11,690 bases of DNA, from positions 1-11,690 of the forward strand of contig JAGLJD010000003.1 in NCBI GenBank assembly GCA_023142625.1. Reading direction: 5' to 3'. Below, piece by piece: positions 2,514-11,593 of the stretch; the first letter of the stretch is position 1, and each line of letters begins with the position of its first letter. Under the pieces are notes generated by a model, which did no database searches, was not told the origin of the DNA, and was given only the letters and a program-made list of their open reading frames with translations. This DNA comes from Candidatus Parcubacteria bacterium. GTDB taxonomy: Bacteria; Patescibacteriota; Patescibacteriia; JAACEG01. A program made the translations under genes and the position numbers.

Positions 2514-3260
2514 ATGGATGAAACATTACTAAAACTTTTAGAAGAATCTAATTTCACGAACAAAGAAGCAAGGGTTTATCTCGCGCTTTTAGAATTAAGC
2601 CAAGGAACCGTGACAAAAATTGCCAAAATAACCGAACTAAAACGCCCGATTATCTATGTAATTTTAGAAGGGCTGATTAAGCGCGGCTATGCCAGCGAAT
2701 TGCCGAATAAAAAAATTAACGCGTATCAGCCGATTAGCCCTGAAATAATTTTGAAGCGATTACAAGGTATTGTTAAAAATTTCTCTGAAATGCTTCCTGT
2801 TTTTAAAACCTTGCATAATAAAGGCGGCAAAAAGCCGAAAATAACCTACTATGAGACAAAAGAAGGGATCTGGAATGTCTATAAAGAGATGACTTTATCA
2901 AAAAATCCGTTTTTTATATCAAATTACCATATCATTGAAAAATTTTTTCCTAATGCCGTTGATACTTGGATTAGAGAAGTAAAAACCGGCTTATATAATC
3001 CAAACGGACGCCATCTTATGCCTGAAAACGCAAGAAATATTGAAATCGGCAAAAAATTTATAAAAATCAAACAAAAAGTCAAAATTTCCAAAGAATTAAA
3101 GGGTTCTAATATGGATTTTACTCTTTGGGATAACAAGTTAGCCATTACATCTTTTGAAAATCAGCTGTTCATCGTAGTTATAGAATCAGAAGAACTTATT
3201 AAATCTATGCGTCCAATTTTTAATATTGCATGGAAAGCCGGCAAATACTTGAAAAAATAA
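2514..3260 (+). CDS. TrmB-like (winged-helix) transcriptional regulator
   Basis: A 248-residue protein. Residues 1-75 form a winged helix: EARVYLALLE, then GTVTKIAKI, then the putative recognition helix KRPIIYVILEGLIKRGYA, a layout typical of the TrmB N-terminal domain in which the ALLELS..T..EIA pattern is conserved. A linker helix (about 78-105) follows, then an alpha/beta effector domain (from about 109, KITYYETKEGIWNVYKEM) to the end, as in the shorter TrmB-like proteins that lack the full maltose-binding C-terminal domain of archaeal TrmB. It probably binds DNA as a dimer; ligand and targets cannot be read from sequence. The start follows from the -10/-35 position and the MDETLLKLLEE start typical of the family. 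It heads a same-strand group with the phosphatase and cca, separated from the former by 66 nt carrying a palindrome. Confidence 0.8.
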   Translation: MDETLLKLLEESNFTNKEARVYLALLELSQGTVTKIAKITELKRPIIYVILEGLIKRGYASELPNKKINAYQPISPEIILKRLQGIVKNFSEMLPVFKTLHNKGGKKPKITYYETKEGIWNVYKEMTLSKNPFFISNYHIIEKFFPNAVDTWIREVKTGLYNPNGRHLMPENARNIEIGKKFIKIKQKVKISKELKGSNMDFTLWDNKLAITSFENQLFIVVIESEELIKSMRPIFNIAWKAGKYLKK

Positions 3261-3289: not shown

Positions 3290-3307
3290 ATGTTCCGCGC
3301 GGAACAT
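3290..3307. repeat. ParS-like palindrome, copy 1
   Basis: ATGTTCCGCGCGGAACAT, perfectly self-complementary over 18 bp, in the gap between the TrmB-like gene and the phosphatase. First of eight copies between 3290 and 5636. Confidence 0.9.
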
Positions 3308-3326
3308 TGGAAATATAAATATTTTT

Positions 3327-3884
3327 ATGGCAAAAATATACATTATAAGACATGGGGAAACAGATTTTAATGTCCAAAACAGATATCTTGGCAGAACTGA
3401 CATATCTTTGAATTTAAAGGGCAAAAATCAAGCAAAAAAAATGTTTAACCGTATAAATTCGCTTGATATTGACATTGTTATCTCTTCTCCTCTTAAAAGG
3501 GCGCTTGAAACAGCGAAAATAATTAAACAAAATGGCAAAAAAGTGCTTATAGACAACCATTTTATTGAAAGATCGGTTGGAGTATATGAGGGATTAACAA
3601 AAAAAGAGGCAAAATTAAAATATCCTGATTTATACGCTAAAAATATTACCAGAATTTATAATGATGCGCCGTTAGGTGGCGAAACAATAAAAAATACTGA
3701 GAAAAGGGTGTTCAAAGGGTTGAATAATATTAAAAAAATCTATAAGGATAAAAACATTCTACTTATAACCCATGCTTTTGTCGCAAAAATTATAAACAAA
3801 TACTTTAATCCTAATATTTCCGAGTCAAAGTTTTACGCTTTTACTTTAAAAAACCTTGAGTTTAAGGATTATCAGTTTAATTAA
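3327..3884 (+). CDS. Histidine phosphatase family protein (phosphoglycerate mutase-like)
   Basis: A 185-residue protein, the usual length for the small cytosolic branch of the histidine phosphatase superfamily. The catalytic RHGET motif is at residues 8-12 (H9 would be phosphorylated). SSPLKRALETA (53-63) supplies the second phosphate-pocket arginine, R58. E81 in ERSVGVYEG is the likely acid. GGET is at 117-120, and the second catalytic histidine is H149 in LLITHA, where many relatives have SHG. All core residues are present, so the enzyme should be active. Substrates in this family range from phosphoglycerate to cobalamin precursors, nucleotides and sugar phosphates, and none can be chosen here. 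No Shine-Dalgarno sequence precedes the ATG; MAKIYIIRHGE is nevertheless the canonical family start. It lies between the regulator and cca, with a palindrome on each side. Confidence 0.88.
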   Translation: MAKIYIIRHGETDFNVQNRYLGRTDISLNLKGKNQAKKMFNRINSLDIDIVISSPLKRALETAKIIKQNGKKVLIDNHFIERSVGVYEGLTKKEAKLKYPDLYAKNITRIYNDAPLGGETIKNTEKRVFKGLNNIKKIYKDKNILLITHAFVAKIINKYFNPNISESKFYAFTLKNLEFKDYQFN

Positions 3885-3902
3885 AGCGATCATAAGTAAT
3901 GA

Positions 3903-3938
3903 TTTTTTTCAATGTTCCGCGCGGAACATTGAAAAAAA
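3903..3938. repeat. ParS-like palindrome, copy 2, inside a 36-bp perfect palindrome
   Basis: The core ATGTTCCGCGCGGAACAT (3912-3929) is extended by TTTTTTTCA on the left and TGAAAAAAA on the right to a 36-bp perfect palindrome. The T-run comes before the GC-rich stem and the A-run after it, on both strands, the opposite order to an intrinsic terminator, so it should not stop transcription into cca. It lies 20 bp upstream of the cca start. Confidence 0.9.
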
Positions 3939-3958
3939 ATAACAAATATTATAACAAT

Positions 3959-5566
3959 ATGATACCTAAATACATAGAAATCACAATAAAAAAGCTTGAA
4001 AAAACTGGGTTTGAGGCGTATATTGTCGGCGGCTGCGTTCGCGATCTGTTGTTATGCAAAAAACCGAAAGACTGGGATATTACAACAAACGCTAAACCAG
4101 AAGAAATTTTAAAAATTTTTCCAAATTCTGTTTATGAAAACATATTTGGCACCGTTGGCGTTAAAATCAAAGAAAAAGACACAACAATTGCTGTTGTAGA
4201 GGTAACAACCTATCGAACTGAAACGAAATATAGCGATAAAAGGCATCCTGATAGCGTAAAATTCACTAATGAACTAAAAAAAGACTTGTCGCGTCGCGAT
4301 TTTACGATAAATGCTATGGCAATTAAGCTAAATAAAGGCATTATTGAGATGTTCCGCGCGGAACATTGTAAAAATCGCAAAACAAAATGTTCCGCGCGGA
4401 ACATTGGAAAAATCGCAAAACAAAATGTTCCGCGCGGAACATTGGAAAAATCGCAAAACAAAATGTTCCGCGCGGAACATTTGCTATTAAGTATTGAAAA
4501 ACAAGAGCTAAACACTATTATAGACTATTTTAACGGACAAAAAGACTTAAAAAATGGAATCATTAAAGCGGTCGGGGATGCTAACAAAAGATTTAACGAA
4601 GATGCTTTAAGAATGATGAGGGCTATTAGATTTGCTGTTGTTTTAGGGTTTAAAATAGAAAAAAACACATTTCAAGCTATTCAAAAAAACTCTAAATTGA
4701 TTAAAAAAATAGCCAATGAGCGGATAAAAGACGAATTTATTAAAATTTTACAGTCAGATCAGGCTGATTTTGGCGTAATCTTGCTAAGAAGAGCAGGACT
4801 TTTGCGATATATCCTGCCCGAATTAGAATCTGGCGTAGGTGTAAGCCAAAATAAACACCATATTTATACTGTCTTTCAACATTTAATAAGAGCGTTAAAA
4901 CATTGTCCAAGCGCTGATTATAGAGTGCGACTATCCGCTTTGCTTCACGATATTGCTAAACCGCAGACAAAAAGAGGCGGCGGAATTAACGCAACTTTCT
5001 ACAACCATGATATAATCGGGGCTAAAATAAGCGCTAAAATAATGAAGAGGTTAGCTTTTTCCAAAGATGATATAAAAAAAGTGGCTCATTTGATTAAAAA
5101 CCATATGTTTTATTATAATGTTGACGAAGTTTCAGATGCTGGAGTAAGAAGGTTAGTTAGAAAAGTAGGGCTTGAAAACATTAAAGATTTAATGGATCTG
5201 CGCATTGCCGACCGTTTAGGATCTGGATGTCCAAAAGCAAAACCGTATAAATTGCGCCATCTTGAATATCTTATTGATAAAGTGGAAAAAGACCCAATCT
5301 CGGTAAAAATGCTTAAAATAAACGGCGATGACTTAATAAAAACGCTAAAAATCACTCCTGGACCAAAAATAGGCGCTATTTTAGACTGTTTATTGTCGGA
5401 AACCATTGAAAATCCTCAAAAAAACACTGTAGTTGAGCTTAAAAAACGGGCAAAAGAGTTAAATAAGATGGATTTAAACGAGTTAAGAATTAAGGCAAAA
5501 ACAAAAATTGAAGAAAAAAAAGAGGAGGATGATAAGGAAATCAAGCAAAAGCACTGGGTAAAATAG
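3959..5566 (+). CDS. cca: CCA-adding tRNA nucleotidyltransferase with HD domain and a repeat-derived insertion
   Basis: Adds or repairs the 3' CCA of tRNAs from CTP and ATP. This start gives 535 residues; MIPKYIEITIKKLEKTGFEAY aligns with the usual start, while an upstream ATG at 3899 would only add residues encoded by a palindrome. No Shine-Dalgarno sequence is seen. The class II nucleotidyltransferase head shows GG (24-25), the metal-binding D38 and D40 in DWDIT, and RRDFTINAMA (112-121). After the insertion come GQKDLKNGIIKAVGD (193-207) and RFNEDALRMMRAIRF (211-225). An HD phosphohydrolase domain follows, with H330-D331 and H350-D351, then a helical tail. The oddity is residues about 131-187, between NKGIIE and IIDYFNGQKDL, where relatives have only a few residues: this stretch is encoded largely by four palindromes at 38-bp spacing. 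The frame stays open and the catalytic motifs are intact, so it is probably functional. Confidence 0.93.
   Translation: MIPKYIEITIKKLEKTGFEAYIVGGCVRDLLLCKKPKDWDITTNAKPEEILKIFPNSVYENIFGTVGVKIKEKDTTIAVVEVTTYRTETKYSDKRHPDSVKFTNELKKDLSRRDFTINAMAIKLNKGIIEMFRAEHCKNRKTKCSARNIGKIAKQNVPRGTLEKSQNKMFRAEHLLLSIEKQELNTIIDYFNGQKDLKNGIIKAVGDANKRFNEDALRMMRAIRFAVVLGFKIEKNTFQAIQKNSKLIKKIANERIKDEFIKILQSDQADFGVILLRRAGLLRYILPELESGVGVSQNKHHIYTVFQHLIRALKHCPSADYRVRLSALLHDIAKPQTKRGGGINATFYNHDIIGAKISAKIMKRLAFSKDDIKKVAHLIKNHMFYYNVDEVSDAGVRRLVRKVGLENIKDLMDLRIADRLGSGCPKAKPYKLRHLEYLIDKVEKDPISVKMLKINGDDLIKTLKITPGPKIGAILDCLLSETIENPQKNTVVELKKRAKELNKMDLNELRIKAKTKIEEKKEEDDKEIKQKHWVK
4349..4480. repeat. Tandem array of four ParS-like palindromes (copies 3-6) inside cca
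   Basis: Copies of ATGTTCCGCGCGGAACAT start at 4349, 4387, 4425 and 4463, exactly 38 bp apart, with 20-bp spacers (TGGAAAAATCGCAAAACAAA) that are identical except one base in the first. Because 38 leaves remainder 2 on division by 3, successive copies are read in three frames (MFRAEH, CSARN, VPRGT, MFRAEH); three units add 114 bp and restore the frame. Identical spacers rule out a CRISPR array. Confidence 0.93.
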
Positions 5567-5576
5567 CTTTTCAACC

Positions 5577-5600
5577 TTAATGTTCCGCGCGGAACATTAA
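5577..5600. repeat. ParS-like palindrome, copy 7
   Basis: TTAATGTTCCGC and its exact reverse complement form a 24-bp perfect palindrome 10 bp after the cca stop codon. The shared 18-bp core is at 5580-5597. Confidence 0.9.
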
Positions 5601-5609
5601 AATAATCAA

Positions 5610-5645
5610 AAAAACAGGGTGTTCCGCGCGGAACACTCTGTTTTT
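5610..5645 (+). terminator. ParS-like palindrome, copy 8, forming the cca terminator
   Basis: The core GTGTTCCGCGCGGAACAC (5619-5636) has its outer A/T changed symmetrically to G/C, and is extended by AAAAACAGG and its partner TCTGTTTTT, with one G-T wobble. A-run, GC-rich stem, T-run is the order of an intrinsic terminator, and it reads the same on both strands. It therefore could stop both the cca transcript and the deaminase transcript arriving from the right. Confidence 0.75.
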
Positions 5646-5675
5646 AAATCTAAAAATTACTTATCTCATACAATG

Positions 5676-5754
5676 AGTTATATCCGAACTTAATCCGTAT
5701 TTGGCTTAAAATCAATGATTATTTACGCTAAACTTGTAATCATAAAAACTTTAA
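5676..5754. repeat. Direct repeat DR1 (79 bp) downstream of the deaminase gene
   Basis: Aligns without gaps to 6325-6403 with about 8 mismatches by eye (near 90% identity). It starts AGTTATATCCGAAC and ends AAAAACTTTAA. It lies 3' of the deaminase gene, as DR2 lies 3' of rel. No ORF or clear terminator is seen in it. Confidence 0.85.
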
Positions 5755-5775
5755 ACTTATTAAAACGGTAAAATT

Positions 5776-6267: not shown

Positions 6268-6324
6268 ATTATGGAAATTAATATTGATATATAAATTAAG
6301 GATGGGGTTTAATTTTGCCTAATA

Positions 6325-6403
6325 AGTTATATCCGAACCTAATCTATTTTTCACTTAAAATCAACGATTATTTACGCTAAACTTGCAATCATAAAAACTT
6401 TAA
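6325..6403. repeat. Direct repeat DR2 (79 bp) between rel and the deaminase gene
   Basis: Second copy of DR1, same orientation, 649 bp further on. The 10-bp string AAATTCTACT containing the stop codon (TAG on the minus strand) is also shared by both genes (5771-5780 and 6481-6490), so the similarity includes the gene ends as well as the intergenic DNA. Confidence 0.85.
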
Positions 6404-6485
6404 TCTTGCTAATCTTTTTATATAACCTTGCATATTAGCAATCAAATTTCTATTTTACAATGTAAATATTCTCTATTTCTAAATT

Positions 6486-7937
6486 CTACTGCTTTATTCT
6501 GCTCATAATGCTTGACAAAATTCCCTGCTTTTTCGCGTGGCGCTTAATATGCTCTTTAGCAGACTGAGTTTTAACGAATTTCAGCCAGTCAATGCTCGGT
6601 CCCTGGCGATTTTTGTCAATAATCACTTCCACTAAATCACCGCTTTTTAAGGTTGTGCTCACCTGTTCTATCTTTTCGTTTATTATCACTCCGACGCACT
6701 TGTTTCCTATTTCTGAATGGACATGATAAGCAAAATCAATAGCGCTTGCCCTTTTAGGAAGGTCTATCACATCCCCCCTTGGCGTAAAAACGAAAATGCG
6801 GTCGCTAAAAATATCAAATTCCAGCGTTTTTATAAAATCTTTATTATTAGAACTATTTTTCTGTATTTTAAGGATATCGTCAATCCATGCGGATTTCGCG
6901 CTAATCGCGTCTTTATAGCGCCAATGCGCGGCAACTCCGTATAGCGCCTCTTCGTGCATCTGCTGCGTCCTAATCTGAAATTCAATCAGCTTGCCCTCGT
7001 GACCGAAAACGGTAGTATGCAAACTTCTATAGCCATTCGGCTTCGGCATAGAAATAAAATCTTTAAAGCGATATTTTTTAGGATGATACAGAGTATGTAT
7101 AGCACCGAGCATTTTATAGCAGTCAGGAATGCTATCAACAATAATCCTCATAGCGAAAACATCATAAATTTCATTAAACTTTTTGTTTTTATTCTGCATT
7201 TTTAGCCAAACGCTATAAATGTGCTTAAATCTTCCTTCTATAATAAATTTTATATCGCACTTTTTCGCCTCTTTAGCAATATTTTCGCTGATTTTTTTTA
7301 TTAGCGCCTCTCTCTCTTTCTGCTGCTCTCTTTCGTATTTCTCTTTTATTTTATTAAAATTTTCAGGGTCTAAAAATTCAAAGCATAAATCCTCCAGTTG
7401 CCACCTTAAATGCCATACTCCGAGCAGTCCAGCTATCGGAGCGTAAATTTTAAAAGTCTCTTCAATGATTCGTTTTTGCTTGTGCTTTGGCAAATATTTA
7501 AGCGTCTTTAGATTATGCAGGCGGTCGGCAAACTTAATAATCATCACGCGCGAATCCTGCGCGGCGGCAATAAACATTTTTTTTAAATTTTCAACATAAC
7601 GGTCAATTCCCCTATATTTCACTTTGCTTAATTTGGTTATGCCATTAACTAAAGTGGCAACCTCCGAACCAAAATTTTTTTTAATGTCATCTAATGTTAT
7701 ATCTGTGTCTTCAGGGACATCATGCAAAAGTCCTGCGATAATAGTCGGCATGTCCGCATTAATCTTCGCTAAAGTAAGCGCTGTATCAAGCGAATGATTT
7801 ATATACGGCTCTCCTGACATCCTTTTTTGCCCCTTATGCGCCTCTTTGGCGTATTCATAAGCTAATTTAACCATATCTAAATTGGCTTTTGGATTATTTT
7901 TTTTAATTATTTCTAAAAAATCAGAATAGGTTGACAT
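6486..7937 (-). CDS. rel: Bifunctional (p)ppGpp synthetase/hydrolase, short form (HD-synthetase-TGS)
   Basis: Makes and degrades the stringent-response alarmone (p)ppGpp. Of 483 residues, 1-190 form the HD hydrolase domain: GEPYINHSL, HDVPEDT at 72-78 and FADRLHNLKTL at 136-146, so the hydrolase residues are present. The synthetase domain (about 225-345) has GRFKHIYSVWLKM, the RFKD motif at 290-293 that marks bifunctional Rel/SpoT rather than RelA (EPDD-type), PKPNGYRSLHT and QIRT..MH, then AAHWRYK. A TGS domain (about 380-440: VFTPRGDVIDLP, DFAYHVHSEIG) follows and the protein ends soon after. The helical, zinc-finger and ACT regions of the usual 700-750-residue protein are missing, so ribosome sensing may differ. 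M at 7937 is chosen over the ATG at 7979 because the latter lies inside tRNA-Gly. No Shine-Dalgarno sequence; the gap to the tRNA is 15 nt. Confidence 0.93.
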   Translation of the reverse strand: MSTYSDFLEIIKKNNPKANLDMVKLAYEYAKEAHKGQKRMSGEPYINHSLDTALTLAKINADMPTIIAGLLHDVPEDTDITLDDIKKNFGSEVATLVNGITKLSKVKYRGIDRYVENLKKMFIAAAQDSRVMIIKFADRLHNLKTLKYLPKHKQKRIIEETFKIYAPIAGLLGVWHLRWQLEDLCFEFLDPENFNKIKEKYEREQQKEREALIKKISENIAKEAKKCDIKFIIEGRFKHIYSVWLKMQNKNKKFNEIYDVFAMRIIVDSIPDCYKMLGAIHTLYHPKKYRFKDFISMPKPNGYRSLHTTVFGHEGKLIEFQIRTQQMHEEALYGVAAHWRYKDAISAKSAWIDDILKIQKNSSNNKDFIKTLEFDIFSDRIFVFTPRGDVIDLPKRASAIDFAYHVHSEIGNKCVGVIINEKIEQVSTTLKSGDLVEVIIDKNRQGPSIDWLKFVKTQSAKEHIKRHAKKQGILSSIMSRIKQ

Positions 7938-7952
7938 AAAACAAATATATTG

Positions 7953-8024
7953 AGCAGGTGAGCGGAATCGAACCGCCATCCTCAGCTTGGAAGGCTGGCA
8001 TAATAACCATTATACGACACCTGC
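7953..8024 (-). tRNA. tRNA-Gly (anticodon UCC)
   Basis: The 72-nt sequence has a 7-bp acceptor stem (GCAGGTG with CACCTGC), a D-arm with TATAATGGTTATTAT, an anticodon loop CTTCCAA giving anticodon TCC, and a T-arm GGCGGTTCGATTCCGCT of the usual form. The outermost anticodon-stem pair looks like a C-A mismatch. The discriminator base is T and it is followed by CAA, so CCA is not encoded and must be added after transcription, presumably by the enzyme at 3959-5566. The rel start codon follows 15 nt downstream on the same strand. Confidence 0.93.
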
Positions 8025-8215: not shown

Positions 8216-8410
8216 ATGCACTTAAAGCTTGACGACCTTGTCGCTAAAAAAGAAAAGGAATTAGAAGAAATCGGAAAATTTTACTCTCTCTTTGAATCTT
8301 GTAAACATAAAGTAAGAGAACTAAACAGAGAATCCTCTGCTATAACCCTTGATGAACTTGAGGAACTTATCGTTAAGCGACTTAAATTCCAAGGAATTAT
8401 GGTTGAGTAG
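8216..8410 (+). CDS. Small charged, coiled-coil-like protein (module copy A), unknown function
   Basis: A 64-residue protein that I do not recognise. It is rich in Lys and Glu and predicted all-helical: residues 8-24 (LVAKKEKELEEIGKFY) and 44-58 (LDELEELIVKRLKF) have heptad-like spacing of hydrophobics. GGGAGG lies 5 nt before the ATG and sets the start. The product at 10403-10585 shares its layout: KL-acidic/hydrophobic-AKK near the N-terminus and V-KRL..G near the C-terminus. With the homologous flanks this makes the two genes probable diverged paralogues. It has its own promoter and an intrinsic terminator 46 bp after the stop, so it is a one-gene unit. That promoter, RBS and terminator are all kept in both copies argues that a product is made. 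Confidence 0.6.
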   Translation: MHLKLDDLVAKKEKELEEIGKFYSLFESCKHKVRELNRESSAITLDELEELIVKRLKFQGIMVE

Positions 8411-8568: not shown

Positions 8569-8713
8569 CTGTCTTTGCGAGGAGCCGAATGAGCGTAGCG
8601 AATGAGGTGCGACGAAGCAATCTCGTTAATGTCCGTATAAACTATGTAAAGTAAAGATTTGTCCGCTCAGTAATGGGATTGCTTCGTCGGCTATCGCCTC
8701 CTCGCAAAGACAG
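8569..8713. mobile_element. Palindromic MITE/REP-like element, copy A
   Basis: The 145-bp element has perfect 16-bp inverted ends, CTGTCTTTGCGAGGAG and its complement, and inner arms GCGACGAAGCAAT/ATTGCTTCGTCG. It has no coding capacity, so it would need a transposase in trans. No clear target duplication is seen. About 25 bp to its left, CTGTATCTTCGCAAAA (8544-8559) looks like the decayed end of another copy, at the position where the element starts in the sister module. It accounts, with the terminator and the two hairpins at 8811 and 8850, for most of the 492-nt gap 8411-8902. Confidence 0.8.
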
Positions 8714-10344: not shown

Positions 10345-10402
10345 GAAATGATATAAAATTGTTTTGATATTTTTTAAACCCCTAAATGAAAAGGAGGGAA
10401 AA

Positions 10403-10585
10403 ATGGAACGAAAACTTAATTTTGGCGAGATGCTCGCTAAAAAAAAGGCGATTGGGGCAAAGGAGCTCCATAAAGCATTGGAGTTTAAAAATCTTTTAAC
10501 TCACCTATCAATGTGCATAGACTTTGATAGAAATAAAAACAGAAAGGCGGCAGTCAGTAAGCGGCTGTTGCGAGGGGTCAAATGA
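10403..10585 (+). CDS. Small basic protein (module copy B), unknown function
   Basis: A 60-residue protein without a recognised family. It is Lys/Arg-rich and probably helical: MERKLNFGEMLAKKK, then KELHKALEFKNLLTHL, then a basic tail NRKAAVSKRLLRG. The start is set by AAGGAGG 5 nt before the ATG at 10403; an in-frame ATG at 10364 lacks an RBS and would lie directly behind the promoter. It resembles the 64-residue product at 8216-8410 in N-terminal KL..AKK and C-terminal V.KRL..G patterns, but the middle has diverged and this copy is basic where the other is acidic/basic mixed. It has its own promoter, a 13-bp hairpin directly after the stop and an intrinsic terminator. A nucleic-acid-binding role would suit the charge, but that is speculation. 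Confidence 0.6.
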   Translation: MERKLNFGEMLAKKKAIGAKELHKALEFKNLLTHLSMCIDFDRNKNRKAAVSKRLLRGVK

Positions 10586-10711: not shown

Positions 10712-10869
10712 GTGTCTTTGCGAGGAAGGAGCGGAGCGATAGCGGAACGACTGACGAAGCAATCCCATTACTGAACGAATAAAACTGTAATTATAATTTT
10801 TTTGTCTATTAACGAGATTGCTTCGTCGCATCTCATTCGCTACGCTCATTCGCCTCCTCGCAAAGACAG
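10712..10869. mobile_element. Palindromic MITE/REP-like element, copy B (inverted relative to A and C)
   Basis: About 158 bp. It reads as the reverse complement of copy A: the arm with GCGATAGC and CCCATTACTGA is on the left here and on the right in A, and the arm GCGAATGAGCGTAGCG is on the right here. Ends are TGTCTTTGCGAGGA and CTCCTCGCAAAGACA. It ends 37 nt beyond the efp stop codon. Together with the hairpin and terminator above it fills the 321-nt gap 10586-10906. Confidence 0.8.
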
Positions 10870-11478: not shown

Positions 11479-11593
11479 TGTCTTTGCGAGGAGCCGAATG
11501 AGCGTAGCGAATGAGATGCGACGAAGCCGCACCTAACGGGTGGTCACCCGTTAGGTGCGGCTTCGCTTCATTCCACTCCGCTCGCAAAGACAG
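11479..11593. mobile_element. Palindromic MITE/REP-like element, copy C, directly upstream of efp
   Basis: It starts TGTCTTTGCGAGGAG and ends CTCGCAAAGACAG. Its left arm (11479-11525) matches the reverse complement of the right arm of copy B almost perfectly (one difference seen in about 45 bp). It ends 14 nt before the efp start codon, where a ribosome binding site and leader would be expected. Its centre has been replaced by the palindrome at 11522-11565. Bases 11594-11674 beyond it are AT-rich with no gene. Confidence 0.8.
11522..11565. repeat. Perfect 44-nt palindrome nested in element C
   Basis: The 21-bp arms (11522-11542 and 11545-11565, CGAAGCCGCACC... and its complement) pair perfectly around only GT. 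It is GC-rich and absent from copies A and B. Confidence 0.85.

Follow-up and report, generated by a model that had tools for sequence, protein, structure and literature searches.

A probable parS cluster with a changed recognition sequence around and within cca in a patescibacterial lineage

Results

We have analysed a DNA stretch of 11,690 nucleotides from Candidatus Parcubacteria bacterium (GenBank assembly GCA_023142625.1, contig JAGLJD010000003.1), called the window below; it is contig C117 of a draft genome, G000, with 837,233 bases in 193 contigs and a completeness of 75%. Eight copies of the 16-bp palindrome TGTTCCGCGCGGAACA lie around and within cca, the gene for tRNA nucleotidyltransferase, and they very probably make up the parS cluster of this patescibacterial lineage, in which both the recognition sequence and its reader, ParB, would have changed. 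Identity of the sites as parS is strongly supported by homology of place with canonical parS in related genomes; co-adaptation of ParB with the changed sites is likely, and the choice of the exact ParB residues behind the changed reading is offered as a hypothesis. We infer, from comparison of sequences, that ParB would bind the sites, that they would serve segregation and that residue 201 of ParB may have a causal role.

A search tolerating three mismatches found eight copies of the palindrome in the window, all of them perfect, where 200 dinucleotide shuffles gave an expected count of 0.01. The first-pass annotation had counted eight copies around and inside cca; the count and the layout agree with ours, but each of its starts is one base too low. 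Site 1 (3291..3306) lies between a TrmB-like regulator gene (2514..3260, + strand), which it adjoins, and a histidine-phosphatase-family gene (3327..3884, + strand) that fills the space between sites 1 and 2. Site 2 (3913..3928), on which a longer inverted repeat with A/T arms is centred, is 46 bp 5′ of the start of cca (3959..5566, + strand), the open frame of which can begin at 3899. Four sites fall in a variable loop of cca: site 3 (4350..4365) and site 6 (4464..4479), both read as MFRAEH, and between them site 4 (4388..4403) and site 5 (4426..4441), each in a 38-bp repeat unit. The spacings of these four copies are 38, 38 and 38 bp and the units are near-identical, so part of the cluster arose by local duplication. 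Site 7 (5581..5596) is located 15 bp 3′ of the cca stop codon, and site 8 (5620..5635) is the centre of a strong terminator-like hairpin. With flanking bases included, seven of the eight sites read ATGTTCCGCGCGGAACAT, the remaining one having GTG...CAC.

Counting the 16-mer across the genome, a check proposed in the first-pass annotation, produced only this one cluster: at up to two mismatches no further copy was found in the whole 75%-complete assembly, and canonical parS, TGTTTCACGTGAAACA, was absent from the assembly as well. Sites of the form TGTTCCNNNNGGAACA and of the degenerate form TGTTYCBCGVGRAACA are, assembly-wide, the eight cluster copies only.

The cca locus was found in four genomes of the same family, and all four carry exact canonical parS: three sites in G002, ten in G003 (all inside 3.8 kb), two in G004 and one in G005, with additional near variants in G004 and G005. 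A site follows the cca stop codon at 2 bp in G002 and G005, at 86 bp in G004 and at 91 bp in G003; the corresponding distance in G000 is 15 bp. On the 5′ side, relatives have a site 43–73 bp (G002, G003 and G005) or 297 bp (G004) from the open frame of cca, measured from its stop-to-stop frame, and G000 has one 46 bp from the start. Moreover, one canonical site of G003, translated as MFHVKH, falls within cca, in the very loop that reads MFRAEH...CSARN...VPRGT...MFRAEH in cca of the window. By these placements, the sites of G000 and the canonical parS of the relatives are positional homologues. In the order-level relative G006 cca is located at the end of a contig that has no parS-like site.

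We number the bases of a half-site after PMC7383237 (G1 T2 T3 T4 C5 A6 C7); this paper, PMC4368675 and PMC5450999 are cited here for parts of their text. Every site of G000 differs from TGTTTCACGTGAAACA by two symmetric changes, T to C at base 4 and A to G at base 6; thus 4 of the 16 bases depart from the canonical sequence and the CACGTG core becomes CGCGCG. C4 together with A6 is the Pseudomonas form of parS in the cited parts of PMC4368675 and PMC5450999, and it is common in the class of G000. The exact 16-mer, on the other hand, occurs in G000 alone among 380 class genomes, and the degenerate form given above in 9 of the 380, the eight besides G000 having one site each. For the canonical Burkholderia parSc1, PMC5450999 reports in the part cited that symmetrical changes abolish binding, save for the 1-16 change and the 5-12 transition; base 6 is position 7 of the 16-mer, hence an intolerant position for a ParB reading Burkholderia parSc1. 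Some other species are described there as tolerating, to a lower extent, a single change at position 7 or 10. A literature search, with most subscription journals outside it, returned no published report of parS with a CGCGCG core, nor any paper containing TGTTCCGCGCGGAACA, TGTTTCGCGCGAAACA or their 14-mer cores.

A profile search of the genome gave a single ParB_N match, outside the window on contig C147: a frame of 291 codons with ParB_N, HTH_ParB and ParB_C, directly 3′ of a ParA-like gene. The genome accordingly has ParA and ParB of a ParABS system, and its palindromic 16-mers form a single cluster at the place that parS occupies in relatives. The first-pass annotation had suggested as the reader of the palindrome a ParB/Noc-like protein of new specificity, an idea to be abandoned were the genome to lack such a protein or were the palindrome scattered at random with no conservation in relatives; one ParB beside ParA, a single cluster, and canonical parS or near variants at homologous positions in four same-family genomes favour the ParB branch of this suggestion. 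On contig C147 (L095), parAB is followed by Gp49-like and HTH_3 genes resembling a toxin–antitoxin pair. A RelA/SpoT gene adjoins parB in G002–G006, and in G000 it stands beside the parS cluster (window 6486-7979).

Numbering ParB residues by a gap-free match of the helix-turn-helix (HTH) region to the Caulobacter ParB chain of 6T1F, we find H162, GKSR170-173, M179, N184, F200, A201 and R204 in the recognition region of G000 ParB. In ParB of the four family members residue 201 is Ser (three) or Gly (one), and residue 200 is S or T. Solved ParB and Noc complexes place residue 201 at base −6, and R173 and G201 were called absolutely conserved in extant ParB orthologues (PMC7383237, in the part cited). 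Absolute conservation of G201 does not hold in Patescibacteria; among the best 120 database ParB matches, 60 have Ser at residue 201, 42 have Gly, 12 have Ala and 6 have Thr. Three ParBs that are 81–85% identical to ParB of G000 all have F200, A201 and R204, which makes the interface a feature of the lineage. The FAQAR motif recurs in ParBs P0002-P0004 and P0051. A tree of 106 ParBs (midpoint root, rough bootstrap) puts the G000 group inside the family clade (100/92) and G002 beyond the next fork (96/78), a topology that would fit A6 as the ancestral state.

To relate site bases to ParB residues, we used 47 genomes in which one or more perfect sites and a readable ParB were available (22 with T4A6, 21 with C4A6 and 4 with G6), the site groups being assigned by hand; the ParBs of one class-wide set are the better-scoring part of those from 363 matching genomes. 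Left out were, among genomes with T4 sites, G042 (gapped HTH), G061, G062, G090 and G091 (ParB not fetched) and G087 (no ParB match); among those with C4 sites, G057 (ParB cut by a contig end), G066 (ParB not fetched), G052 and G059 (core of the single site not shown); genomes having odd-core or asymmetric sites only (G014, G015, G022, G026, G030, G036, G067, G073, G079, G089, G237 and G345); and G380 (no ParB match).

A scan of all ParB columns singled out residue 204 as by far the best predictor of base 4 (p=4.6e-10, the next column having 1.7e-4; these p-values ignore shared descent). Arg204 is present in 21 of the 22 T4 genomes versus 1 of the 21 C4A6 genomes, 20 of which have Lys204; the exceptions are G104 (Lys204 with one T4 site) and G048. 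Residue 204 has been described as an Arg conserved between ParB and Noc (PMC7383237, same part), and the class-wide split between T4/Arg204 and C4/Lys204 would be an unexpected split in specificity. A stricter rule, that C4 always goes with Lys204, was rejected: it is broken by G000, G048 and the C4-bearing sites of Candidatus Yanofskybacteria described below. As for base 6, Ala201 is found in all four G6 genomes versus 1 of the 43 A6 genomes.

When GTDB species genomes were scanned for the 16-mer flanked by A/T, 96 stretches were obtained; among the 80 of the 96 listed, many are planctomycete, some are likely chance singles and four come from Candidatus Yanofskybacteria. Sites of the form TGTTYCGCGCGRAACA number 2, 2, 3 and 3 in these four genomes; all are G6, no set extends over more than 1.3 kb, and A6 sites of the same pattern were not found. 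The sites adjoin a Mg-chelatase/ComM-like gene (by Pfam in one genome, by eye in three), and a fifth stretch, L205, resembles them by eye. ParB linked to ParA was present in three of the four assemblies, and all three proteins have A201 and R204. Given the well-supported branches of the ParB tree, the G6 label has two origins.

Copies of the 16-mer were seen elsewhere too. It is dispersed in some planctomycetes, and the two genomes counted have 59 and 28 sites of TGTTYCRCGYGRAACA; the planctomycete contigs (within L114-L193) are above all DDRH01 and VGZI01, of Phycisphaerales UBA2421 and Planctomycetota K_Offshore_80m_m2_128, and the copies of UBA2421 often come in pairs or triplets some 50–200 bp apart. 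This would be a different use of the palindrome from that in the G000 cluster. The Acidobacteria metagenome-assembled genome JABCZI01 (L118, L144, L185 and L191) has five copies on three contigs, including two at a distance of 34 bp, and these may represent a further family of variant sites. For the planctomycete and acidobacterial copies the analysis covered counts and flanks. Among viral contigs, the 16-mer was seen in 15 stretches, in 12 of them as a single copy.

With regard to the replication origin, we considered nine neighbourhoods of 40–66 kb around parS clusters of class genomes. DnaA, confirmed by Pfam, was 8–16 kb from the parS cluster in five of them (G012, G020, G068, G199 and G207). 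It was not found around G003:C7, G039, G047 and G062 or in a 20-kb Yanofskybacteria piece, where a text screen of frames only was made and its lack is not established. On G003:C7 the GC-skew minimum lies 6–10 kb from the parS cluster.

The window contains further repeats. A 92-nt direct repeat (87% identical; 5672-5763 and 6321-6412) flanks a cytidine/deoxycytidylate-deaminase-family gene, and a dispersed repeat with TGTCTTTGCGAGGAG...GCGACGAAGC occurs in both orientations at 8569-8645, 10793-10869 and 11479-11527. Two small open reading frames, 8216-8410 (no Pfam match) and 10364-10585, each come after a related leader containing CTTGACTTTTTTATTCATT.

Discussion

Several other explanations of the palindromes were weighed against a parS cluster. 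Sites of Noc type, recognized by a paralogue resembling Noc that prevents division over the nucleoid, had been one suggestion of the first-pass annotation; the architecture of the arms is alike, and base 6 also differs between Noc-binding sites (NBS) and parS (PMC7383237, in part). However, NBS have A1 and C6 where the sites of G000 have G1 and G6, the sole ParB_N protein found has Arg173 and Ala201 in place of Gln173 and Arg201, the sites form one cluster instead of being dispersed and relatives have parS at the same place, all of which makes Noc sites highly improbable. We give equally little credence to a palindrome that is mobile or copies itself and is located here by chance, the selfish element of the earlier proposal. 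The near-identical 38-bp spacings in cca do point to local duplication, and the 16-mer is dispersed in some planctomycetes, but G000 holds no copy elsewhere in its 75%-complete assembly, so that genome-wide spread finds no support, and in relatives canonical parS stands at the homologous places.

Longer inverted repeats with strong RNA folding (−19.0 and −23.1 kcal/mol, z −6.4 and −7.9, for window 3900-3940 and 5603-5652) are centred on sites 2 and 8, and the region has 7 terminator-like matches versus 1.8 expected. These figures speak for transcription terminators, or for operators of another dimeric regulator; still, four sites are in the coding sequence of cca, the 16-mer is identical amid differing flanks and parS of relatives occupies these positions, which leaves such a reading with a very small chance. 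At some sites a parS role may double with terminator use.

A parS cluster read by a changed ParB has, nonetheless, several observations against it. The parAB genes are on a separate 3.4-kb contig of an assembly that is 75% complete, so a mis-binned ParB or missed sites are possible; neither cca nor ParB is in the assembly of the genus mate G001; and oriC of G000 could not be located in the draft, the data on origin distance coming from other class genomes. G000 itself breaks the class rule by having C4 with Arg204. At base 6, Ser228 (numbered on G000) ties with Ala201 as a predictor, and with one genome per lineage, where the test is weak, residue 67 outranks 201. Ala201 occurs with A6 sites in G040, and five further Ala201 genomes (G006, G013, G035, G052 and G055) were without a site of the form TGTTNCNCGNGNAACA, in a search where 33 of 45 genomes had no site of the searched form; Ala201 is present, too, in 12 of the best 120 database ParBs. 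Ala201 as a perfect marker of G6 sites was rejected on account of G040 and the five genomes.

It is therefore a serious contender, at somewhat below an even chance, that the sites are parS while base 6 is read through other changes of ParB (e.g. at 174-175, 179, 200 or in the Ser228 column), Ala201 being incidental. G040, the tie with Ser228, the rank of residue 67 and the fact that independent G6 lineages number only two speak in its favour; the solved structures of ParB and Noc complexes, in which residue 201 lies at base 6 (PMC7383237, as cited in part), and the presence of Ala201 in each of the four G6 genomes speak for residue 201 itself.

If the cluster is indeed parS with a co-adapted reader, a ParB dimer, encoded next to ParA on G000:C147, would bind every 16-bp palindrome, where it would load as a clamp before spreading, and ParA would then separate the sister origins. 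All sites found in the lineage would have switched from TGTTTCACGTGAAACA to TGTTCCGCGCGGAACA, by T to C at base 4 and A to G at base 6 of each half-site, with the DNA-reading surface of ParB changing alongside. The best candidate for base 6 would be residue 201, Ser/Gly to Ala; a possible reason is that replacement of thymine −6 by cytosine removes a methyl group beside this residue. One could go further and propose that on two or more occasions in Patescibacteria the core base A6, taken to be invariant, has been rewritten to G6, in each case with Ala201, and that, along with T4/Arg204 and C4/Lys204, this reflects a natural centromere recognition code evolving by coordinated replacement of all sites. 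We regard this broader proposal as evenly balanced, its odds slightly lowered by the fact that Ala201 is no rarity in the group.

Few bacterial DNA sites are as conserved as parS, and the joint change of a multi-copy site and its single reader has been studied mainly via laboratory reprogramming of ParB towards Noc. Here a natural before-and-after comparison would be available at homologous positions inside one family, together with a second lineage having the same base change; the class-wide tie between base 4 and residue 204, and residue 201, name residues for testing. Orthogonal ParB/parS pairs for DNA labelling are a possible use, and searches for canonical parS would miss centromeres in this group.

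In comparison with known systems, the sites of G000 are like canonical parS TGTTTCACGTGAAACA (PMC7383237, in part) in the 16-bp perfect palindrome, the TGTT...AACA arms, the cluster of several sites, the cognate ParAB and the place in the family; they differ at bases 4 and 6 of each half-site, in the CGCGCG core and in Ala201 of ParB. With Pseudomonas-type parS, TGTTCCACGTGGAACA (PMC4368675 and PMC5450999, in part), they have the C4 change in common, whereas that type retains A6 and the CACGTG core. NBS of Firmicutes (PMC7383237, in part) likewise have a natural change at base 6, read through residue 201 of ParB/Noc, but with A1, C6 and Arg201 in a separate protein, unlike G1, G6 and Ala201 in what appears to be the main ParB of G000. 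Finally, the replicon-specific parS variants of Burkholderiales, in the cited part of PMC5450999, are also natural centromere variants with ParBs of their own; those variants distinguish several replicons in a cell, while in G000 all sites of an apparently single chromosome have changed.

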